Below are positions 5,113 through 64,000 of a stretch of 64,000 nucleotides of DNA, piece by piece. Numbering within the stretch: position 1 is the stretch's first letter; each line of letters starts with the position of its first letter. Below the pieces are notes generated by a model. It was not told where the DNA came from, made no database searches, and saw only the letters and a program-made list of their open reading frames with translations. This DNA comes from Desulforegulaceae bacterium. Lineage in GTDB: Bacteria; Desulfobacterota; Desulfobacteria; Desulfobacterales; JACKCP01. Position numbers and translations under genes: made by a program. Location of the stretch: the NCBI GenBank assembly GCA_034006035.1, contig JAVETN010000002.1, positions 124,001 to 188,000 on the forward strand, in the 5' to 3' direction.

Positions 5113-6060
5113 ATGTTTTTTCAAACAGCAGGAATAGAAGTTGCCATCTGGATTCCTCCTTTAACAGCCTTTGTAATTTCATTTTTCACATCAATGGGCG
5201 GGGTTTCAGGAGCGTTTTTACTTTTACCCTTTCAAATGTCTTTTCTTTCCTATACAAATCCCTCTGTAAGTGCAACAAACCAGGTTTTCAATATTGTTGC
5301 AATCCCGGGCGGTGTTTACAGGTTCTGGAAAGAAGGAAGGCTTGTATGGCCCCTTGCCGCAATTGTCATCATAGGAACCCTTCCAGGTGTGTTTATCGGG
5401 GCAATGGTAAGGGTTCTCTACCTTCCGGATCCAAAAAACTTTAAATTTTTTGCCAGTCTTGTTCTTTTTTATATTGCATTAAAAATGATCTTAGACCTTG
5501 TAAAATCCAAAAACAAAAAAACAGCTGGGAACAAAAGCGAAGAACATTTCCAAAAAATGATGAAAAAAGGTGAAATCAAAAAGAAAAACACCAAAGATTT
5601 CAAACCTGTTGAAATTATAAAAATAAACTTTAGCCACCTTAATTTTAAATTTTACGAAGAAACTTTTAATGTATCAATTCCGGGGATTTTCAGCCTTAGC
5701 TTTATTGTTGGAATAATTGGAGGGATTTATGGAATAGGAGGAGGGGCAATTATTGCTCCTTTTTTTATAAGTTTTTTCCATCTCCCGGTTTATATTGTTG
5801 CAGGTGCTGCACTGATGGGAACTTTTGTTACTTCAATAGCCGGAGTAATTTTCTATTCTCTGATAGCTCCATTTTACCCTGAAATGTCCATTGCCCCGGA
5901 CTGGCTTCTTGGAGCTCTTTTTGGAGGAGGCGGACTTTTGGGAATTTACCTTGGAGCAAGGGTGCAAAAATTTGTTCCTGCAAACTTAATTAAATGGATG
6001 CTTGCTTTTATAATAATCTTTACAGCAGGAAAATATTTTACTGAATTTTTTGGCAGCTAG
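5113..6060 (+). CDS. TauE/SafE-family sulfite/anion exporter permease
   Basis: This 315-aa polytopic inner-membrane protein belongs to the TauE/SafE (DUF81) family, whose members are proposed exporters of sulfite, sulfoacetate or related organosulfur anions. Two family repeats are visible: an N-terminal one with SFFTSMGGVSGAFLLLP and a second with GIIGGIYGIGGGAIIAPF, each followed by several hydrophobic helices. A long Lys-rich cytoplasmic loop of about 60 residues (roughly 135-190) separates them. The ATG at 5113 follows AAAAGGGGATTG. It is a single-gene unit between two terminators. The specific substrate cannot be read from sequence; sulfite is plausible in a sulfur-metabolising anaerobe. 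Confidence 0.85.
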   Translation: MFFQTAGIEVAIWIPPLTAFVISFFTSMGGVSGAFLLLPFQMSFLSYTNPSVSATNQVFNIVAIPGGVYRFWKEGRLVWPLAAIVIIGTLPGVFIGAMVRVLYLPDPKNFKFFASLVLFYIALKMILDLVKSKNKKTAGNKSEEHFQKMMKKGEIKKKNTKDFKPVEIIKINFSHLNFKFYEETFNVSIPGIFSLSFIVGIIGGIYGIGGGAIIAPFFISFFHLPVYIVAGAALMGTFVTSIAGVIFYSLIAPFYPEMSIAPDWLLGALFGGGGLLGIYLGARVQKFVPANLIKWMLAFIIIFTAGKYFTEFFGS

Positions 6061-6531: not shown

Positions 6532-9500
6532 ATGAAGAAAAACAAGCTTATCAAACTAATTTTTGTTCCGCTTTTATTGATATTTATATCTGGATGCGGA
6601 GGTGGCTCCTCTTCCTCAGATGAGGACAGTTCAAAATTTACTATTGATGCGGGAGTAGATAGAACTGAAGTCGAAGGTACTGAAGTAGTACTTTCCGGAA
6701 GTATAAAAGGTTCTGAAAAAGATGTTACAGACATCAAATGGGAGCAGCTCTCAGGAACCCCCGTTGATTTAAAAGACAGCAACAAATTAAATGCCAGATT
6801 TACAGCTCCAAAAACCCTTCTTGAAACAACTTTGGAATTCGAACTCACTGTTTCTGCAGGCTCTCAGCAAACATTAAAAGATAAGGTAATAATAACCGTA
6901 GTGGAAAAAAATACTGACCCCATTGCCAATATCGGCCCAGATCGTAAAGGAGCTCTGGCGTCAGACATTCCAAACCCGAAAAACTCCAAAATAATATTCA
7001 TTGACGGAACCCAATGCTCAGGAAACAAATTCACTTGGCAAGTGGTTTCAGCTCCTGAAAACAGTCAGTATTTTTTCACCAGCAAAAATACACCATCAAC
7101 AGGTTTTTATGCTGATAAATCAGGAGAATATAAACTTAAGCTGACAGCTGACAATGGTCAGGGCATCACTGCTGAAGATGAAATCCTGATAACTTTAATT
7201 CAAGATTCAGATGGAGACGGTATAGCAGATAAAGATGACCTGGATAGAGATGGTGACGGGTTTCTGAACATCAATGATGCATTTCCTGATGACCGTGCAT
7301 CCCACTTTGATTTCAACAACGACGGCAAAGGGAATTATTACGACGACGATGTTGACGGTGACGGTGTTATTGACATAGAAGACGACTATCCTCTGGATTC
7401 AACACGTTCGAAATACAAAGAATACAAAGAACAGGAAAAAACCCCTTTCAACACAAATGACGGCATCTCTGTCAGCGAAGATGCAGGTGAAATTCCTGTT
7501 AAGATTTCTGGGCTGATTCACTCGCCTAAAGGTCCGGATCTTGATTATTACAAGATTAAAATGGCCCCTGGGATCTATTCTGCCATGGTAGATGGAGGCG
7601 ATTCTGAAATGTCTCCTTCAGTTGCAATAGTAGATAGTTACGGCAACTCTCTCCCTTTAAAAAGGTATGATTTTACAACTCAGGTAGGTATAACAGGAGC
7701 AGGCGTATCTGTACCTTCTCAAGGCGATTATTATCTTGTTATCACAGATTCCTCCGGCAAAAGTGATGAGAAATGGGAATATGAGGCGAAAGTTTTTAAA
7801 GACACAGACATGGACGGACTTTCAGACGATCTGGAAATGGCCATAGACAGCAACCATTTGTCTGCAGACAGCGACGGAGATACAATCCCCGACTTTATTG
7901 AATTTTACATTACAGCAAAAGACTGGCCTAAAAACAAAGATATAGACAATGATGGACTGCCTGCCTGGTGGGATACTGACACTGACGGCGATATGATACC
8001 CGACAGAGTTGAATATTACACTCAAGCTGAAAAGCCCGAACTTGATTCAGCCGCCCTTGCTTTACTAAACGATGTAGATGGTGATGGCTATCCAAACTTC
8101 TTTGACACAAGCAGTGATAACACAAGCTATGCCGACGACACAGTACAGGCAGGGCCAAATCCAAACTTACCACTGGATACAGACAAGGATGGGATTCCCA
8201 ACTACCTGGACCTGGATAATGACAATGACGGACTTAAAGACTCTGAAGAGACAATAGAAACTTATAATGTTAAACTTATAGCTCCAGGAGCTGACAGGTC
8301 TGCCATAGCAGATTCTCTTCTCATTAAACGCCTTTACAATGCTACAAGAGGAATAGAAAATCTTTCCATAGCAGATGATGAACTGTCTCTAGAGATTGTA
8401 AACGGCCCAGGTTCTGCAGATGAACTCATTGGTGTTTTCAATACTCTAGAAGGAGCTATAACCCAGAAAGCCTCTTCTCTTATAAATAATATTGCCACTT
8501 TCACAGGTCCCGACAATATAGATTCAGGGCTTATTGAGTTTTTCATTGCTGCTGACGGTAAACGAAGTCATGGTATTGAACTTCAGATAAGAACAGATTC
8601 AATGCCTCTACTCAAAACAGCAGCTTACAACAGCTCAAATTCAAATGTCACTCTCACAGGTGAAAATCTTAATTCGGAATTGTCCGTAAATTTCAATGGA
8701 GCTTCTAAAAACATAAAGAATACATCAGATACAGAGCTTAAACTCAACCTTCCATCCCAAGCACAAACAGGCTATGTATCAGTAACTTCAGTTGCAGGTG
8801 AATCAAATTCTCTATGGCTAAAGATTACAAGAAAGATTAATGGAACTATAGATTCTCCAAATATTAATGTGGATCTTACAAAACTTGATGTTTCCCTAAA
8901 TCTTGATCAAGAAATTTATCCTGATATAAAAGGAAATTTTTCAACAGATGCAAATTTAAACAAACCAACAACTATAACTGCTCTTCTTGAAAAAGACGAA
9001 TCTACACCTGCAGTGCCTCAGTATGGACTCTATTTGTCAGGAGTTATTTTCCCACATCAGAACAATATCACACTGAATGAAGAGTCAACCGCCCTATCTC
9101 TTATATGGGACGGACTGGGGGTGGAGCAACTAATAAAAGATTCCGAATTAGCCAATATCTATGATGAAATTTCAAATCGTGATTCTGTTAGAAATTTAAA
9201 AGATCTTCTTAAAAACAAATTGATACAAAATCCTCAAGTTTTAAGTGATGGGGACACTGAATTAAATAAGGCACTGACCAATGCCTATAAAGATGTATCA
9301 CAATTAATTGCAGATTCTGATAAATTAAAAACAGCCCCTGAAGCGTCTAAAAAACTTCTTGGACTTTTTGGAGAAAACGCAGAGGTTACTCCTGAAGTGG
9401 CAGATGATATAAAAGTGTATGAATATGAAGATTCAGGCAATATTGCTATAAACAACGATACTCAATTATATCTTTCTGCAAAAATAACTGCCTCTGACGG

Positions 9501-14334: not shown

Positions 14335-15420
14335 ATGGAAAAAAGAATTTTCAATTTCAATCCGGGACCGGCTGTTCAGCCCCTGCCGGTTTTGAAGCAG
14401 ATTCAAAAAGATTTTATAAATTACAATAATACAGGAATGTCCATAATAGAAATAAGTCATAGATCAAAAGATTTTATGGCTATTCTTGAGTCTTCCAAGA
14501 AAAGAGTAAAAAGACTTTATAATCTAGATGATTCCTGGAAAGTTATTTTTGTTCCGGGAGGAGCCAGTCTTCAATTTGCAATGGTTCCTATGAATTTTCT
14601 TACCAAAGACAAAAAGGCCGGATATATAAACACAGGCACCTGGTCAACCAAAGCAATAGAAGAAGCCCAAATTCAGGGTAAAAATATAAAAGTTACAGCT
14701 TCATCAGAAGATAAAAACTTTTCATATATTCCCAAAAACTTTACCATCCAAAAAGACTTGGCTTATCTTCATATAACAACAAACAATACAATCAGGGGAA
14801 CCCAATGGCAAAATCTTCCTGAAACTGAAATTCCCCTTGCTGCAGACATGTGTTCGGATATTTTAAGCAGGCCTCTTGATATTGAAAAATTCGGGATAAT
14901 TTATGCGGGTATCCAAAAAAACATAGGCCCTTCAGGAACAGCACTTGTGCTTATTAAAGACAAAATGCTAGACCTTGTACCCGAGGATCTGCCCACAATG
15001 TTGAGCTATAAAACCTATGTTAAAAAAGATTCAATGCACAATACTCCTTCAACATTTTCAATTTACTGCTGTGAACTTGTTTTAAAATGGATTGAAGAAG
15101 AAATTGGAGGCCTTGAAAATATGGCAGCCTTAAATAAAGAAAAAGCTGACTATATTTACAATACAATTGATGAAAGCAATGGATTTTATAAAGGAACAGC
15201 TCAAAAAGAAGACAGATCATTTATGAATGTAACTTTCAGGCTCTTAAACGAGGATCTTGAAAATAAATTTATAAACCTAGCCCTTGAAAATGGACTTGGA
15301 GGCCTTAAAGGTCACAGAATTGCTGGAGGAGTAAGGGCTTCCATTTACAATGCAATGCCCCTTGAGGGAATTAAGACTCTTTGTAAATTCATGGAAGATT
15401 TTAAAAACCAAAATTCATAA
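14335..15420 (+). CDS. serC: Phosphoserine aminotransferase
   Basis: This 361-aa PLP enzyme converts 3-phosphohydroxypyruvate and glutamate to phosphoserine, and in some bacteria it also serves the vitamin B6 route with PdxJ. Visible motifs are FNFNPGPAVQPLPVL, GMSIIEISHRSKDF, VPGGASLQFAM, and the PLP lysine region YAGIQKNIGPSGTA. The C-terminus GLKGHRIAGGVRASIYNA is typical. The ATG at 14335 follows GGAGG at 14319-14323; an in-frame TTG at 14317 overlaps that site and is unlikely. It diverges from hisD across a 118-nt gap that must hold both promoters. Confidence 0.96.
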   Translation: MEKRIFNFNPGPAVQPLPVLKQIQKDFINYNNTGMSIIEISHRSKDFMAILESSKKRVKRLYNLDDSWKVIFVPGGASLQFAMVPMNFLTKDKKAGYINTGTWSTKAIEEAQIQGKNIKVTASSEDKNFSYIPKNFTIQKDLAYLHITTNNTIRGTQWQNLPETEIPLAADMCSDILSRPLDIEKFGIIYAGIQKNIGPSGTALVLIKDKMLDLVPEDLPTMLSYKTYVKKDSMHNTPSTFSIYCCELVLKWIEEEIGGLENMAALNKEKADYIYNTIDESNGFYKGTAQKEDRSFMNVTFRLLNEDLENKFINLALENGLGGLKGHRIAGGVRASIYNAMPLEGIKTLCKFMEDFKNQNS

Positions 15421-57508: not shown

Positions 57509-57856
57509 TTGAAAAAAATAGCTTTTTTTGTATTCAACGGAGATCCCATGTGTTTTGTTCATGTACTTTTAAACAGCCTTGATATGAAAGAAAAAGGATA
57601 TGATATCAAACTTGTCATAGAAGGAGCTTCAGCAGGACTTATTCCCAAACTTGATTCTTTAGACAAGCCAATACCTGATTTATGGGAAAAAGTTAAATCC
57701 AAAAATATAGTTGATGCTGTTTGCAAGGCATGTGCATATAAACTTGGCGGGCTAGATTCTGCAAAAGAACAAAATCTTCCCCTTAAAGGAGATATGAGCG
57801 GCCATCCTTCAATGACCTCATATATTGAAGAAGGTTATGAAATAATTACTTTTTAA
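57509..57856 (+). CDS. DsrE-family protein
   Basis: This 115-aa small alpha/beta protein has the DsrE/YchN fold pattern: KKIAFFVFNGDPMCFVHVLL, KLVIEGASAGLIPKL and KSKNIVDAVCKACAYKLG. In sulfur bacteria DsrE proteins bind or transfer sulfur on a Cys; here the pair CKACA is a candidate. It follows the flavodiiron terminator by only 16 nt, with an AAGGAGAT site, so it may have some read-through. Function is not fixed. Confidence 0.8.
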   Translation: MKKIAFFVFNGDPMCFVHVLLNSLDMKEKGYDIKLVIEGASAGLIPKLDSLDKPIPDLWEKVKSKNIVDAVCKACAYKLGGLDSAKEQNLPLKGDMSGHPSMTSYIEEGYEIITF

Positions 57857-57899
57857 ATCTACTTTTAATTCAGATTTTATTATTTTCCTAACCTCAAAT

Positions 57900-57935
57900 C
57901 AGAATGGTGTTTCAAGACATCATTCTGGTGTTTTT
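57900..57935 (+). terminator. Intrinsic terminator after the DsrE-like gene
   Basis: CAGAATGGTGT (57900-57910) pairs with ACATCATTCTG (57917-57927), an 11-bp stem with one G-U, followed by GGTGTTTTT. Confidence 0.75.
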
Positions 57936-58122
57936 AACTTCCTAAAGCCCTGGAAAAACTCTAATGAACATTTAATAATCAACCCGGGCCAAGAAAACAT
58001 TGTTTCTTTTAAATTCCAAAAGTTATTTTTCAAACTTCATCCAAGAAGTTTTATTAGCTTAAGTCCAAATCAAGACTGGCTTAGCCGCTTAAAAAGACTT
58101 GTTAAACCAAACTGGTTGAAAC

Positions 58123-58151
58123 TTGACATAATGCCAATAAAGGCATAAAAA
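58123..58151 (+). promoter_or_regulatory. Sigma-70-type promoter of the pilus operon
   Basis: TTGACA (58123-58128) and TAAAAA (58146-58151) are separated by 17 nt. It lies 36 nt upstream of the PilM/PilN gene start. Confidence 0.6.
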
Positions 58152-58186
58152 TTAAACTTAATTTAAAAAATTATCGGGGTAGTGTA

Positions 58187-59868
58187 ATGGGAATAAAGCA
58201 AAACTTTTTCTCTGCCATAAAAAAAAGATAAATCTTAAAAAAAAGTTCAATTCAAAACTCCATTTAGGTATAATAATATCCAAAGAAAGCCTCACCTTTG
58301 CAATTCCCGATTACACTCAAAGTAAAGTTAAAACTCTGGGTCGGATAAAACAATTTTACTACCCTGACAACATTTCATTTTTATCTGAAAATTTTGGTAG
58401 TTTTGTATCTAAGTGCTTAAAAACAATTCCAAGGGAGATTTCATCAAGGGTATGGGTGATTTTACCCTATGACCAAATGGAAACAAGATATATCAAAGTC
58501 CCTAAAACCAATGAAAAGGAAGCTGAAAACGCAGTATACTGGACCCTTAAAAAAGAAATAGATTTTGATATAAAAAATTATTTCCTTGATTTTAAAAAAA
58601 CAGAAACCATAACCGAAAAAGGGGTAACAAAAGAAGGTACCTGTGCTTATATTGCCAAAAAATCAACTGTTTACTCCATAAAATCTCTATTTGAAAAATC
58701 AGGCTTCAATGTAGTTGGAATTACTTCTATTCCATTTGCAGTTAGAGCTATAGTTGAAAATGAAAAATTAAGACAGGGTCCCAAAAATATATGTTTTATT
58801 AATCCCAGAAATGATTCACTTGAAATTTACATATTTACCAAAGGATATATAAAGCTTGTAAGGCAGACAAAAACCGGAATAATGAGCCTTGCTGAATCTC
58901 TTATCCTCAATGCTTTGGAAAATAATAATGAAGAAATCAAATCAAAAACACCTGAAGAACTTACTGAAATTATTTTAGAACATATAAAAAGCAAAAAAGA
59001 TAATGAAGAAAACAATGAAATAGATAAAAACATAGAAAGCACCATTGAAAGAATAGCCAGGCAGGTAGAAAGAACTGTAAACTATTATAACAACCAGATT
59101 CACTCAGATAATATTGAAGCAGTGATAGTCAACGGAGTACTTGCAGATTATCCCCCTCTTACTGAAATGATTGCCCGGTACACAGAAACAAATGTTTTTT
59201 CTTCACTTGATATTATCAATGAATCTGTAGCAGCCAGCCATAAAAATGAAATTTTTAAAAACAATGACTTTCTCACAGCACTTGGCTCAATTTATTGCTC
59301 AAATAAAAACACTCCCAATATTTTATTCACCCAAAGACATCAAAAAGCTTCAAAAACAATAACTCTTGCAAACAGAGCTGTTTTTGCAGGTGTTTTTTTA
59401 ACAATAATTTTTTGTACAGGGTTTTATTTTGTCCAGAAAAATCAAATAAGCAATCTAAAGCAAAAAAAACAAAATCTTGAAAATCAGCTTTCAAAATATC
59501 AGCCAAAAATAAATTCTTCAATGCTTAGTGAAAAAGCCTTAGAAACCCGTAAAAACAAGGGTTTCTTAAAAGAAAAAGCCAAAAAAATGGAACCCCGGGT
59601 TCTCTTAAAAGAATTTTCAGATTTTACCTGTGAAAATATAAAAATTAAGGATTTAAAACTTAATTTAGATTTAGATGATAAAAAAGAAGAAATATTTTTT
59701 TCAGGTTATGTTTTTGGAGAAGAATTTTCTCTTAATTCAATACTTGCAAATTATATCCAGGATTTAAGATCATCAGGCCTTTTTACCCATGTTTCTCTAG
59801 AATCACAAAATAAGTTAACCCTTGATGACAAAACAATAATAGCTTTTTCAGCTTTAATCAAAATTTAG
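58187..59868 (+). CDS. MshI-like PilM-PilN fusion, with -1 frameshift near its start
   Basis: This gene makes the cytoplasmic/inner-membrane platform of a type IV pilus. The start ATG at 58187 has GGGG seven nt upstream and encodes MGIKQNFFSAIKKR, then meets a stop. A -1 shift at the A8 tract (58219-58226) joins it to the main frame, which continues INLKKKFNSKLHLGIIIS, matching the usual PilM/MshI start. The main frame has no good start of its own before a GTG at 58456. The PilM-like part spans about 1-350, the membrane helix is FAGVFLTIIFCTGFYF, and a PilN-like C-terminus follows. Frameshift may be real, phase-variable, slippage-driven, or a sequence error. Fused PilM-PilN followed by PilO, PilP and secretin is the MSHA order. 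Confidence 0.8.
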
Positions 59869-59875
59869 GTTTTTT

Positions 59876-60430
59876 ATGACAAAAAGAACAAAAGTACAAA
59901 AAAGAAAAGCCGAAAGTATAAGTTACGCCATTTCAGGATTTGGCTTAATTATTATTTTTATAATCCTAGTTGTTTACCCTGCTAAAAAACAATCTTCTTC
60001 TCTTAATAAAGAAATAAATGCCCTTGATTCAAAAATAAAAAGACAAGAGGTGTTAAATCCTTCTTACACCCAGCTTTTGATTAAAAACAAGGAAATTGAA
60101 AAACAAATAAAAGAAATTGAAAGCACAGGGTTTGAAAGTTTTTTAAACCACAACAATCTTCTAAAACTGCCAGACTCTTTCAAAGAAATTGCCTCAAAAT
60201 CAAAGATGAAGATGATTTCATGTTCTCCTGATATTAATTCTTCAAAAAACAACAAAAACAAACTCCTGCTCAACCTGGAGCTTGAAGGGGATTTTCTTGA
60301 TTTCCCAAATCTTCTTTCTGCCTTTGAAGCTGAAAAGAAAATTACTTATTTAGAGTCAATCGAAATCAGCTCTGAAAAAACAAAAACTTATTTAATAAAA
60401 CTTTGGCTAAACATGGATAAACAACTATGA
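59876..60430 (+). CDS. PilO/MshJ-like pilus protein
   Basis: This 184-aa protein has one N-terminal membrane helix (SISYAISGFGLIIIFIILVVYPA), a coiled coil and a small ferredoxin-like C-terminal fold ending with LLNLELEGDFLDFPNLLSAF. This is the PilO/GspM layout. It starts 8 nt after the preceding gene and overlaps the next by 4 nt. Confidence 0.78.
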   Translation: MTKRTKVQKRKAESISYAISGFGLIIIFIILVVYPAKKQSSSLNKEINALDSKIKRQEVLNPSYTQLLIKNKEIEKQIKEIESTGFESFLNHNNLLKLPDSFKEIASKSKMKMISCSPDINSSKNNKNKLLLNLELEGDFLDFPNLLSAFEAEKKITYLESIEISSEKTKTYLIKLWLNMDKQL

Positions 60431-60966
60431 GTGCAAGAGAAAAAATTATTCTTATTTTTGCAGGGATAGCTCTTTTGTGGGGAATTTTTGAAATTGGTTC
60501 AACCTATATTTGGAACAAAGACTCCAAATCCCCTGGAACACTAAAATCAAGGGCAGAAATTGACCAGGATATTTCCACTCTTACCGCCAATATTTCAGCC
60601 CAAGTTTCTTCTGCTGATTTAAGTGCAAAGGAAAAGCTGATAATTTCAAAAGGCAACCAAAGCCTTGATAAAGACCCTTTTATAAATTTTAAGGAACTGG
60701 AATCAATGAATACAAAAGGCACGACAAAGGCTGGAAATAAAGGAGAAGGAGTAATTCCAGAACTTACTTCCTACAAATATCTTGGATATATTAAAATAAA
60801 CGAGCTTGAAATAGCTGTGATAAACAATCTGGATTATTTAAAAAATGAACAAATAGAAGGCAGTAAATATAAATTAAAAGAAATTTCACCTTCAAGTGTT
60901 ATTTTAAGCGACGGCTTAACCAGCGTAGAAATATTCAACGAAGAAACAAAATCAGGGTTAAAATAA
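60427..60966 (+). CDS. PilP/GspC-like pilus protein
   Basis: This 179-aa protein has an N-terminal membrane helix (EKIILIFAGIALLWGIFEIG), a linker with low complexity, and a C-terminal PilP/GspC HR-like beta domain (YKYLGYIKINELEIAVINNL and YKLKEISPSSVILSDG). It would couple PilO to the secretin. It overlaps the PilO-like gene and abuts the secretin gene. Confidence 0.75.
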   Translation: MSAREKIILIFAGIALLWGIFEIGSTYIWNKDSKSPGTLKSRAEIDQDISTLTANISAQVSSADLSAKEKLIISKGNQSLDKDPFINFKELESMNTKGTTKAGNKGEGVIPELTSYKYLGYIKINELEIAVINNLDYLKNEQIEGSKYKLKEISPSSVILSDGLTSVEIFNEETKSGLK

Positions 60967-62553
60967 ATGATAAATACAAAAACAGCTTTAAAACTTCTTG
61001 GTTTAGTTCTTATTTTTATTTTTGCATTTTCTTCATGTTCATCAAAAGAAACTGAAGTGGGCAAAGACAATTTTTTTAAAGAGTGGAAAGCAAAAGCAGA
61101 AATTTCAAGGGGATATTCCCCTCCTGATCCTTTGTCAGAGGAAATAACTGAAGAAACTATTTTTCAAAAACCTGGAGACAAGGAAGTTGTCCAGGTAAAA
61201 CCTCAATTTATTCCGGGCGGAGTTGACTTAGACGCTCTTTCAGGAATGGATGAACTACCTGACAGCTTAATGACAATCAAAATGAGAAATGTTGAGGTTG
61301 CCACTCTTTTAAGAGCTCTTGCAAAAGGTGCTGGTAAAAATATAATCCTGAGTCAAAATATAAGCGGACAGGCTGATATTCATGCAGAAAACACTCCCTG
61401 GAAAGAAATCTTTGCCAGTATTTTAAGAAGTCATGGACTCACCTACAATATTATTGGAAATACAATCAGAATCAAAACCCTTGAAGACATGAAAAGGGAT
61501 TTTGAAATTGAAAATCAATTTATAGATCAAAAACAAAAAAGAAAAAGCCTTAAACAACAGGAAATTATTACAAAAGTATTTTTTCTCAAATACTCAGACC
61601 CTGAAACTTCTGCTGAACTTATAAGGCCTTTTATAAGCAAAACCAATTCCCAGGCAGATTCAATTCAAAAAGCCGTGGCAATAGATAAAAGAAACAACGC
61701 CATTATTGTCCATGCTTCTGCTCAGGATATAGCCCAATGTGAAGACCTTCTTAAAAAAACAGACAAACCTGTAAAACAAATTTTAATAGAAGCCCAGATT
61801 GTTGAAACAAGTAAAGATACAGCCCGTGAACTTGGAATCCAATGGGGTGGAGTTGGAAAAGGAAAAAACAATCATTATATAACAACCGGAACTATAGATC
61901 CTTCTTCCCATTCTTTGGACACTCCTGTAAATCCAGAAGGAGGCTGGGGAGCAAACTTTGGAGTTGATGTTGCAGAAAAGGGTTTTTCCCTTGGCTATAT
62001 TTATGAAGATCTCGGGGTAAGCCTTATTTCAGCCCAGCTTACAGCCCTTGAAAATGAAGGAAGATTAAATATTCTTTCAAGACCTTCAATTTCAACCCTA
62101 AATAATTCAACTGCAATTATTGAAAGCGGAAGCGATGTTCCATACCAGACAGTTGAAGACGGGGAAGTAAGTACTGAATGGAAAAAAGCAGTGCTTAAAC
62201 TTGAAGTGGTTCCCCATATAATTGACGATAAAACCTTAAAAGTTAAAATCAAAACAAATAAAGATGAATTAGACTGGTCAAAAGCCAATATTTCACAGGG
62301 AAACCCTACAGTGATAACCAAAAGTGCTGAAACAGAAATGATTCTTTTTGATGGGGAAACTACAGTTATAGGCGGTCTTAACAAAGAGACTCAAAACAAA
62401 AGCAGTTATGGAGTTCCTTTTTTAAAGGATATTCCCCTTCTTGGATATCTTTTTAAAGGTTCTGAAAAAAACAATGGTTATGAAGAAATTTTAATTTTCA
62501 TAACTCCCCATATTCTGAAATCCCATAATCAGTATTCAGAAATTTCAAACTAG
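60967..62553 (+). CDS. Secretin (MshL/PilQ-like), lipoprotein
   Basis: This 528-aa outer-membrane pore has a lipobox AFSSC (Cys about 19), an STN/N-domain (MTIKMRNVEVATLLRALAKG then ILSQNISGQADIHAENTPW), a second N-domain with the DKRNNAIIVHASAQDI pattern, and the secretin core IEAQIVETSKDTARELGIQW, LSRPSISTLNNSTAIIESG, VVPHIIDDKTLKVKI and GVPFLKDIPLLGYLF. The end EEILIFITPHIL is typical. It is short for PilQ but near MshL in size. Confidence 0.93.
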   Translation: MINTKTALKLLGLVLIFIFAFSSCSSKETEVGKDNFFKEWKAKAEISRGYSPPDPLSEEITEETIFQKPGDKEVVQVKPQFIPGGVDLDALSGMDELPDSLMTIKMRNVEVATLLRALAKGAGKNIILSQNISGQADIHAENTPWKEIFASILRSHGLTYNIIGNTIRIKTLEDMKRDFEIENQFIDQKQKRKSLKQQEIITKVFFLKYSDPETSAELIRPFISKTNSQADSIQKAVAIDKRNNAIIVHASAQDIAQCEDLLKKTDKPVKQILIEAQIVETSKDTARELGIQWGGVGKGKNNHYITTGTIDPSSHSLDTPVNPEGGWGANFGVDVAEKGFSLGYIYEDLGVSLISAQLTALENEGRLNILSRPSISTLNNSTAIIESGSDVPYQTVEDGEVSTEWKKAVLKLEVVPHIIDDKTLKVKIKTNKDELDWSKANISQGNPTVITKSAETEMILFDGETTVIGGLNKETQNKSSYGVPFLKDIPLLGYLFKGSEKNNGYEEILIFITPHILKSHNQYSEISN

Positions 62554-62566
62554 GCAAAGGCATAAA

Positions 62567-64000
62567 ATGGCTATGACTCAGAATAGAAGAAAAAGACTTG
62601 GAGAAATGCTTGTAGACTCCGGGCATCTTACAGAAGAAGATTTACTAAAACATATAAATGTTCAAAAAAAATCAGGGCTTAAACTTGGAGAATTCCTTAT
62701 AAAAGAAGGAGTTGTAAGTGAAGCCAGGATTGTTGACATGATATCAAAACAAGCAGGGATAAAAAAATACAACCCAGACAATTACCCTGTGAGTTCTTAT
62801 CTTTCAAAATATATTGATAAAAATTCAGCAAGAAAATATCTATCAGCTCCCTTAAACAAAAAATTCAACCTTCTTCAGGTTGCAATGACAGATCCCCTTG
62901 ATATTAGAATTGTGGATTCCATTGAAGTTGAAACCAATATGGAAGTTGAACCTGTAATCTGCACAGAACAGGAGTTCAACCATCTTTTCAGTATAATTTA
63001 CGGTTCCGATGTTGAAAATGAGCTGATTGAAGAAGGAAGAGCTGCAGCTGAAGAAATGGATTTTAAAGATGAGCCGGATCAAGGAAGTTATTCAGAAGAT
63101 ACAGAAATCTCATCACTTCAGAATATGGCCGAAGAAGCTCCTGTAATAAGGCTTGTAAATGCTCTTTTATCCCAGGCAATCAAACAAGGGGCAAGTGATG
63201 TTCATATAAGCCCGGAAAGAACCTATGTTCAGGTAAGATTTAGAATTGACGGCAAACTCCAGGAAGTGCCGGGCCCTCCAAAATCAATGTTTTTATCAAT
63301 TATTTCAAGACTTAAAATTCTTGCCCATTTAGATATTTCTATTTCAAGAATTCCCCAGGACGGAAGATTTTCAGTACAAATAAATAATAAAGAAATAAAT
63401 ATAAGGGTTTCCACAATTCCAACAATTTATGGGGAAAATCTTGTAATGAGGCTTCTTAATACCTCAACCGGGATTTTAACCCTGGATCAGATGGGACTTT
63501 ATAAAAAAGATAAAGAAAAACTTTTAAGAGCAGTAAAAAGACCTTACGGAATGATTCTTGCCACAGGCCCAACAGGCAGCGGTAAAAGCACGACCTTATT
63601 TGCACTTTTAAATGAAATAAACAAACCGGATATAAATATAATAACCCTTGAAGATCCTGTAGAATACAGAATGGAAAAAATAAGACAGGCCCAGCTAAAT
63701 AGAAAAGCCGGAATGACATTCGCCAACGGACTTAAATCCATTCTCCGCCAGGACCCTGACGTAATCATGGTGGGAGAAATAAGAGACAGTGAAACAGCAG
63801 GAGTTGCAACCCAGGCAGCCCTTACAGGCCATCTTGTTTTTTCAACTGTTCATACAAACGACTCAGCAGGAGCAATTACAAGATTTATAGACATGGGAAT
63901 TGAACCTTTTCTTGTTTCTTCAGTAATGGTTGTTTCCATTGCCCAAAGGCTTATTAGAAAAATCTGTCCCTATTGTGCAGAACCCTATTCTCCTCCACAA
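62567..64000 (+). CDS. MshE-type pilus assembly ATPase with MshEN c-di-GMP motifs (3' end cut)
   Basis: The visible 478 codons run to the window end and lack a stop. Two MshEN motifs lie at the N-terminus, RLGEMLVDSGHLTEEDLLKH (from residue 10) and KLGEFLIKEGVVSEARIVDM (from residue 39), each ending with Q; such pairs bind c-di-GMP in MshE. The GspE/PilB ATPase domain has DVHISPERTYVQVRFRIDG, Walker A GPTGSGKST (from residue 334), the Asp box TLEDPVEY, Walker B MVGEIRDSETA and HTNDSAGAITRFIDMG, then the Zn motif CPYC with two Cys seen before the edge. A 13-nt gap separates it from the secretin gene. Confidence 0.93.
   Translation, partial: MAMTQNRRKRLGEMLVDSGHLTEEDLLKHINVQKKSGLKLGEFLIKEGVVSEARIVDMISKQAGIKKYNPDNYPVSSYLSKYIDKNSARKYLSAPLNKKFNLLQVAMTDPLDIRIVDSIEVETNMEVEPVICTEQEFNHLFSIIYGSDVENELIEEGRAAAEEMDFKDEPDQGSYSEDTEISSLQNMAEEAPVIRLVNALLSQAIKQGASDVHISPERTYVQVRFRIDGKLQEVPGPPKSMFLSIISRLKILAHLDISISRIPQDGRFSVQINNKEINIRVSTIPTIYGENLVMRLLNTSTGILTLDQMGLYKKDKEKLLRAVKRPYGMILATGPTGSGKSTTLFALLNEINKPDINIITLEDPVEYRMEKIRQAQLNRKAGMTFANGLKSILRQDPDVIMVGEIRDSETAGVATQAALTGHLVFSTVHTNDSAGAITRFIDMGIEPFLVSSVMVVSIAQRLIRKICPYCAEPYSPPQ

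Follow-up and report, generated by a model that had tools for sequence, protein, structure and literature searches.

A gene for a PilM–PilN-like fusion protein, at the head of a type IV pilus operon in a Desulforegulaceae bacterium (genome of 2.64 Mb), is out of frame with its apparent start codon by a single base. In the window, by which we mean the whole 64,000-nt stretch of DNA analysed, an ATG opens a short frame that soon reaches a stop codon, while the long main frame is coding up to an A8 run; readable relatives have the gene intact, and its neighbours in the operon are intact as well. We give about an even chance to the explanation that this is a single-base slip allele which is off or leaky and may be able to revert, the pilus operon being otherwise intact. 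This explanation is preferred because the ATG has a good ribosome-binding site, family sequence reaches up to the run, and both the relatives and the rest of the gene are intact.

A frame break at the start of the gene

The features of the gene are as follows.

58187..58231, + strand: short frame MGIKQNFFSAIKKR, then TAA (sequence; ribosome-site energy −6.3 kcal/mol)
58219..58226, + strand: A8 run, likeliest site of the frame change (sequence; frame overlap)
58237..58244, + strand: second A8 run, in the main frame (sequence)
58183..59868, + strand: main PilM–PilN-like frame, with no usable start before 58456 (Pfam PilM_2, NCBIfam pilM and PilM fold)
58261..58278, + strand: first actin-like strand LGIIIS, aligned to VGVDIG of relatives (alignment; model)
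58456..58458, + strand: first GTG of the main frame (model; ribosome-site energy −4.3)

Direct reading of the sequence bears out what an earlier sequence-only reading had described here: the ATG at 58187–58189 with its ribosome-binding site, the 14-codon frame ending in TAA at 58229–58231, and the A8 run. A second A8 run, inside the main frame, was absent from that reading. The anti-Shine–Dalgarno pairing before ATG 58187 is stronger than the median of true starts (−5.6 kcal/mol), and only 6% of random ATGs have a site as good; in 3 of 232 cases (around 1% of long frames) the beginning of a long frame was overlapped by an ATG that is out of frame with it and carries a site of this kind. The support for the ATG 58187 peptide as coding sequence is this ribosome-binding site and its position, the peptide being too short for proof.

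The ATG frame and the main frame overlap only at 58187–58231, and the change of frame is therefore confined to these positions. Composition does not place it further, as the best-scoring switch points are spread across the overlap. The nearest relative (L053) reads RKKIRPWLRSDVHAGIIIGKDSVS (AGG AAA AAG ATA, RKKI) where the main frame has KKKINLKKKFNSKLHLGIIISKES (AAA AAA AAG ATA, KKKI); it aligns in the main frame through the A run, so the main frame is the working frame there and the shift lies in the run or just before it. Of the −1 split at the A8 run that had been proposed, what stands is one gene divided by a −1 change, with the run as its likeliest site within the limits of 58187–58231. 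The tract by itself is unremarkable in this genome, since A8 is common (130 of 370 genes in a sample of 464 kb, made up of 400 kb plus the window); the frame break is the remarkable part.

A divergent PilM–PilN-like fusion

The main frame is open over 561 codons (546 codons is also given for the PilM–PilN-like frame), and its first ATG, GTG or TTG is GTG 58456; the absence of any ATG or GTG before this point, as claimed from the sequence, thus extends to TTG. Homologues align to the main frame from query residue 3, upstream of the first actin strand (E about 1e-93), and an AlphaFold model has strands at residues 12–17, 21–29 and 35–44. By alignment and model, the main-frame sequence before 58456 is coding and belongs to the protein. 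GTG 58456 corresponds to residue 77, and a start there would, in the model, delete strands 1–3, helix 1 and the first half of strand 4, a larger loss than that of the first actin strand that had been foreseen.

The assignment to the PilM/PilN family is supported by profile and fold matches. The model (mean pLDDT 84) has PilM structures as its top Foldseek matches (5eou, E 7e-19; 2ych, E 2e-17), and a profile search matches PilM chains (best E 1e-29), in agreement with the actin-like fold of PilM. Long predicted helices at 369–423 and 430–466 are followed by a small alpha/beta domain, a layout found also in the relatives; there is no direct match to a PilN family. The protein misses the curated family cut-offs for PilM (Pfam PilM_2, E 1e-5, 25.2 bits against 27; NCBIfam pilM, TIGR01175, E 5e-10, 39 bits against 133) and is classed here as a divergent fusion form and not as PilM of the canonical kind. 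The same genome has a canonical pilM at another place (contig C4).

The surrounding operon

The genes and signals around the frame break are as follows.

57509–57856: DsrE-like gene, upstream of the pilus operon (Pfam)
57898..57929, + strand: Rho-independent terminator-like hairpin, 14 pairs with a T tail, closing the DsrE-like gene
58123..58152, + strand: sigma-70-like promoter match (TTGACA, 18 nt, AAAAAT), a weak candidate for the operon promoter
59876..60430, + strand: PilO-like gene (Pfam PilO, E 0.002, just under the cut-off)
60427..60966, + strand: small gene in the PilP/GspB/GspC position (weak matches only)
60967..62553, + strand: secretin of PilQ/MshL type, intact (PilQ 305 bits against a cut-off of 284; MshL 125 bits, below its cut-off)
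62567..64000, + strand: PilB/GspE-type assembly ATPase, intact and running past the window (Walker motif GPTGSGKST in the sequence)

Because the terminator-like hairpin closes the DsrE-like gene, transcription of the pilus operon probably begins at a separate promoter beyond the hairpin; sigma-70-like matches in the region number no more than expected by chance. Further downstream of the ATPase lie a platform protein, a sigma-54-type regulator and pilins, giving the order PilO, secretin, assembly ATPase, platform protein and pilin. No damage is seen in the remainder of the 546-codon frame or in the genes that follow. We take the locus to resemble that of an MSHA-type pilus; in the secretin, the PilQ model is above its cut-off and the MshL model below.

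A 100-codon open frame without a start codon, of weakly coding-like composition, occupies 57846–58148 (+) and overlaps the terminator. As a coding 5′ part of the pilus gene it was rejected, with no convincing homologue in 58 genomes and in view of this overlap.

Relatives and the N-terminal motif

Comparison with orthologues, which the sequence-only reading had called for, found the gene uninterrupted in its relatives. Matches are present in 148 of 389 genomes of the order. In each of the 43 homologues whose motif and start are readable, the gene is a single open frame with no frame change at the start. In several, the same lysine-rich linker ahead of strand 1 contains runs of A7–A9, none of which breaks the frame. 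The two nearest relatives start at ATG and show no shift. The genomes searched included no other member of the species, genus or family, and the ancestral run length is hence not seen.

Across the 43 homologues the start codon is TTG in 36, GTG in 4 and ATG in 3, and ATG is the start codon of the following gene in 25 of 32 cases. The retention of TTG across the order suggests that the dosage of the platform protein is held low. The TTG start in homologues L004–L073 is usually preceded by a GGAG-type site.

The 43 homologues share the motif DEISSTEKLLxLIR (in longer form DEISSTEKLLxLIRxK) at their N-terminus, despite only about 25% identity to the query. The motif is absent from all three forward frames upstream of the gene here, and its longer form has no match in 464 kb of this genome. 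The start region is thus unusual in a second way, which counts against a simple slip allele and could instead indicate that the 5′ end was lost or rebuilt and that the ATG peptide is irrelevant, the gene being a 5′-truncated pseudogene or being translated from GTG 58456 or a non-canonical codon, for example ATA 58228. We judge this account quite improbable. It would fit the moderate ribosome-binding site of GTG 58456 and the apparent ATA start of infC in the same genome, but a ribosome-binding site is missing at ATA 58228 (+1.6) and good at ATG 58187, which as a coincidence is seen in about 1% of frames; the modelled actin fold would lose its first three strands if translation began at 58456; and the motif is likewise absent from one relative (L012), whose gene nevertheless starts at an ordinary in-frame ATG.

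As a decayed form of the motif, the MGIKQNFFSAIKKR peptide scored no better than shuffles (0.51) or other gene starts, and this candidate was rejected.

Possible assembly or base-calling error

Alternatively, the organism's run could have one base more and its gene be intact, the break being an error of assembly or base calling. We regard this as somewhat unlikely. Such errors usually fall in homopolymers, the gene is intact in every relative, and a single base separates this gene from an ordinary one. Against this, the 464 kb contain about 260 A/T runs of at least 8 inside intact coding frames, and no second frame break at a homopolymer turned up there; a scan for start-less frames returned, as further real cases, only prfB, infC and a gene with an in-frame TAG. 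The scan was not exhaustive, as a break near a chance start codon could pass as a normal junction, and an error rate of about 1% per run is compatible with it; a genuine null allele has at least the same probability. An error is therefore possible, and replication slippage is favoured over it as the simplest reading. The gene with the in-frame TAG is a second sampled gene, unrelated to the pilus gene, that is broken, and natural null alleles therefore exist in this genome.

The three other cases differ in kind. In prfB (L038, G000:C1:200001-220000, minus strand near 8714) we recognize the usual programmed +1 frameshift, CTT TGA, in the first codons. At the start of the IF3-like gene infC (L034, G000:C1:40001-60000, minus strand near 5420), ATG, GTG and TTG are all missing, and translation appears to begin at ATA after AAGGAG. 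The third, a secreted binding-protein-like gene (MKKIIALSLFVFIIFANTSYSAPQ...; L048, G000:C4:1-20000), is interrupted on the minus strand at 14950–14952 (GAC TAG CTG) and stays open for 246 more codons after the TAG. Pyrrolysine at this TAG was considered and rejected, PylS not rising above the cut-off in the genome.

Poly-A runs in this genome

We compared run lengths in the 370 sampled genes with an expectation from synonymous-codon shuffles. Runs of A5–A8 are over-represented, A8 occurring 165 times against 120 expected (sd 9), whereas A9 is below expectation (23 against 33) and runs of A10 or longer are nearly absent (1 against 22). The length of poly-A runs in these genes thus has a sharp cut-off: they are commoner than expected up to eight and nearly gone from ten. 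Because of this shortfall at nine and near-absence from ten, slippage seems to become costly at nine or ten A in this genome, A8 being tolerated, by the logic of a survey of bacterial A/T runs in which the length where avoidance begins is taken as a sign of slippage (PMC1088944).

These counts bear on the possibility that the break is a site of programmed or utilized recoding, in which transcriptional slippage on A8 or −1 ribosomal frameshifting on A_AAA_AAA would yield a small, regulated amount of fusion protein. We hold this to be improbable. The heptamer A_AAA_AAA at 58219–58225 does stand in the −1 slippery register relative to the ATG 58187 frame, and the frame entered would be the right one; the usual start of the gene in the order is a weak TTG, so that low synthesis may be wanted; and there are precedents in the A11 run of tssM of Citrobacter (PMC4256274) and the A9 run of Thermus dnaX (PMC1088944). 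However, the avoidance of A8 in coding regions that a utilized transcriptional slippage site would lead one to expect is not seen in the 370 genes, where A8 is instead in excess, and the bare heptamer occurs in the same register 295 times, in 172 of the 370 genes, all intact. RNA around the run and downstream of it is predicted to fold no more stably than shuffled sequences (z of 0.16 and 0.61), and no internal Shine–Dalgarno sequence is seen upstream of it. Of the marks of a programmed −1 frameshift, only the heptamer in register is present: an upstream Shine–Dalgarno sequence, a downstream structure and conservation in relatives are lacking, none of the readable homologues changing frame and the two nearest starting at ATG with no shift.

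The earlier proposal that the pilus is tuned by slippage or programmed frameshifting accordingly finds no support, given the excess of A8, the lack of RNA structure and the A7–A9 runs of relatives that carry no break. Some leak from A8 is expected; a switch or tuner acting by transcriptional slippage is not supported.

A proposed slip allele in a pilus operon

If the preferred single-base slip allele is correct, the gene, first in a type IV (MSHA-like) pilus operon that is intact in other respects, would encode a PilM–PilN fusion and have ATG 58187 as its start codon. A one-base change of length in the A-rich linker, most likely in the A8 run at 58219–58226, would put this start out of frame with the body of the gene, and ribosomes entering at the ATG would halt after 14 codons, giving little or no full-length protein. 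Residual product could come from leakage through rare slippage of RNA polymerase or ribosome, or as a truncated protein from GTG 58456. The change would most likely be ordinary replication slippage and so could revert. We infer both its origin by slippage in the A run and a reduced pilus output.

We see no sign that the cell uses the frame break as a switch. That the break is kept on purpose, with a strong ATG and rare A8 slippage replacing the weak TTG of the order so as always to supply small amounts of PilM–PilN, we consider very improbable.

If the eight A's are true, a further surface-pilus gene would be known to be silenced by a slip of one base, and the locus would be a candidate for a reversible switch in an environmental lineage. 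The run-length spectrum also offers a simple test, usable again for other genomes, of whether slippage can work at a poly-A run.

Comparison with known systems

Pilus switching at homopolymers and the rescue by slippage of interrupted machine genes are both of already known kinds, and a review has listed interrupted pili genes as candidates for frameshifting (PMC5009743). In the sortase pili of Bifidobacterium breve, replication slippage at a G-tract acts as an ON/OFF switch, with run-length populations measured and enrichment in vivo in mice (PMC9187656). The likeness is a pilus gene out of frame at a homopolymer, with expression dependent on run length; here, however, the tract is A8 and not a G-tract, the pilus is of type IV, and the break is known from one assembly. 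In tssM1 of Citrobacter rodentium, transcriptional slippage on A11 occurs at 20–25% and two products are needed (PMC4256274). That gene, too, belongs to an envelope machine and is interrupted beside poly-A, and an A added in the mRNA restores its frame; the run here is A8 and lies near the start, and nothing seen here points to such slippage.

In E. coli and Buchnera, insertions were found to become exponentially more frequent as A/T runs lengthen, and no case was found in which such an insertion restored a frame (PMC5574713). In the survey of bacterial runs, avoidance begins at nine in many genomes (PMC1088944), close to the onset in this genome, and the run here is one below that threshold. 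Compared with the type IVa pilus proteins PilM and PilN (PDB 2ych, 5eou), the main-frame protein matches PilM in predicted fold and profile, and the model places after this part a long helix and a small domain in a PilN-like layout; it differs in that the PilM and PilN-like parts are fused in one protein, whose start is out of frame.
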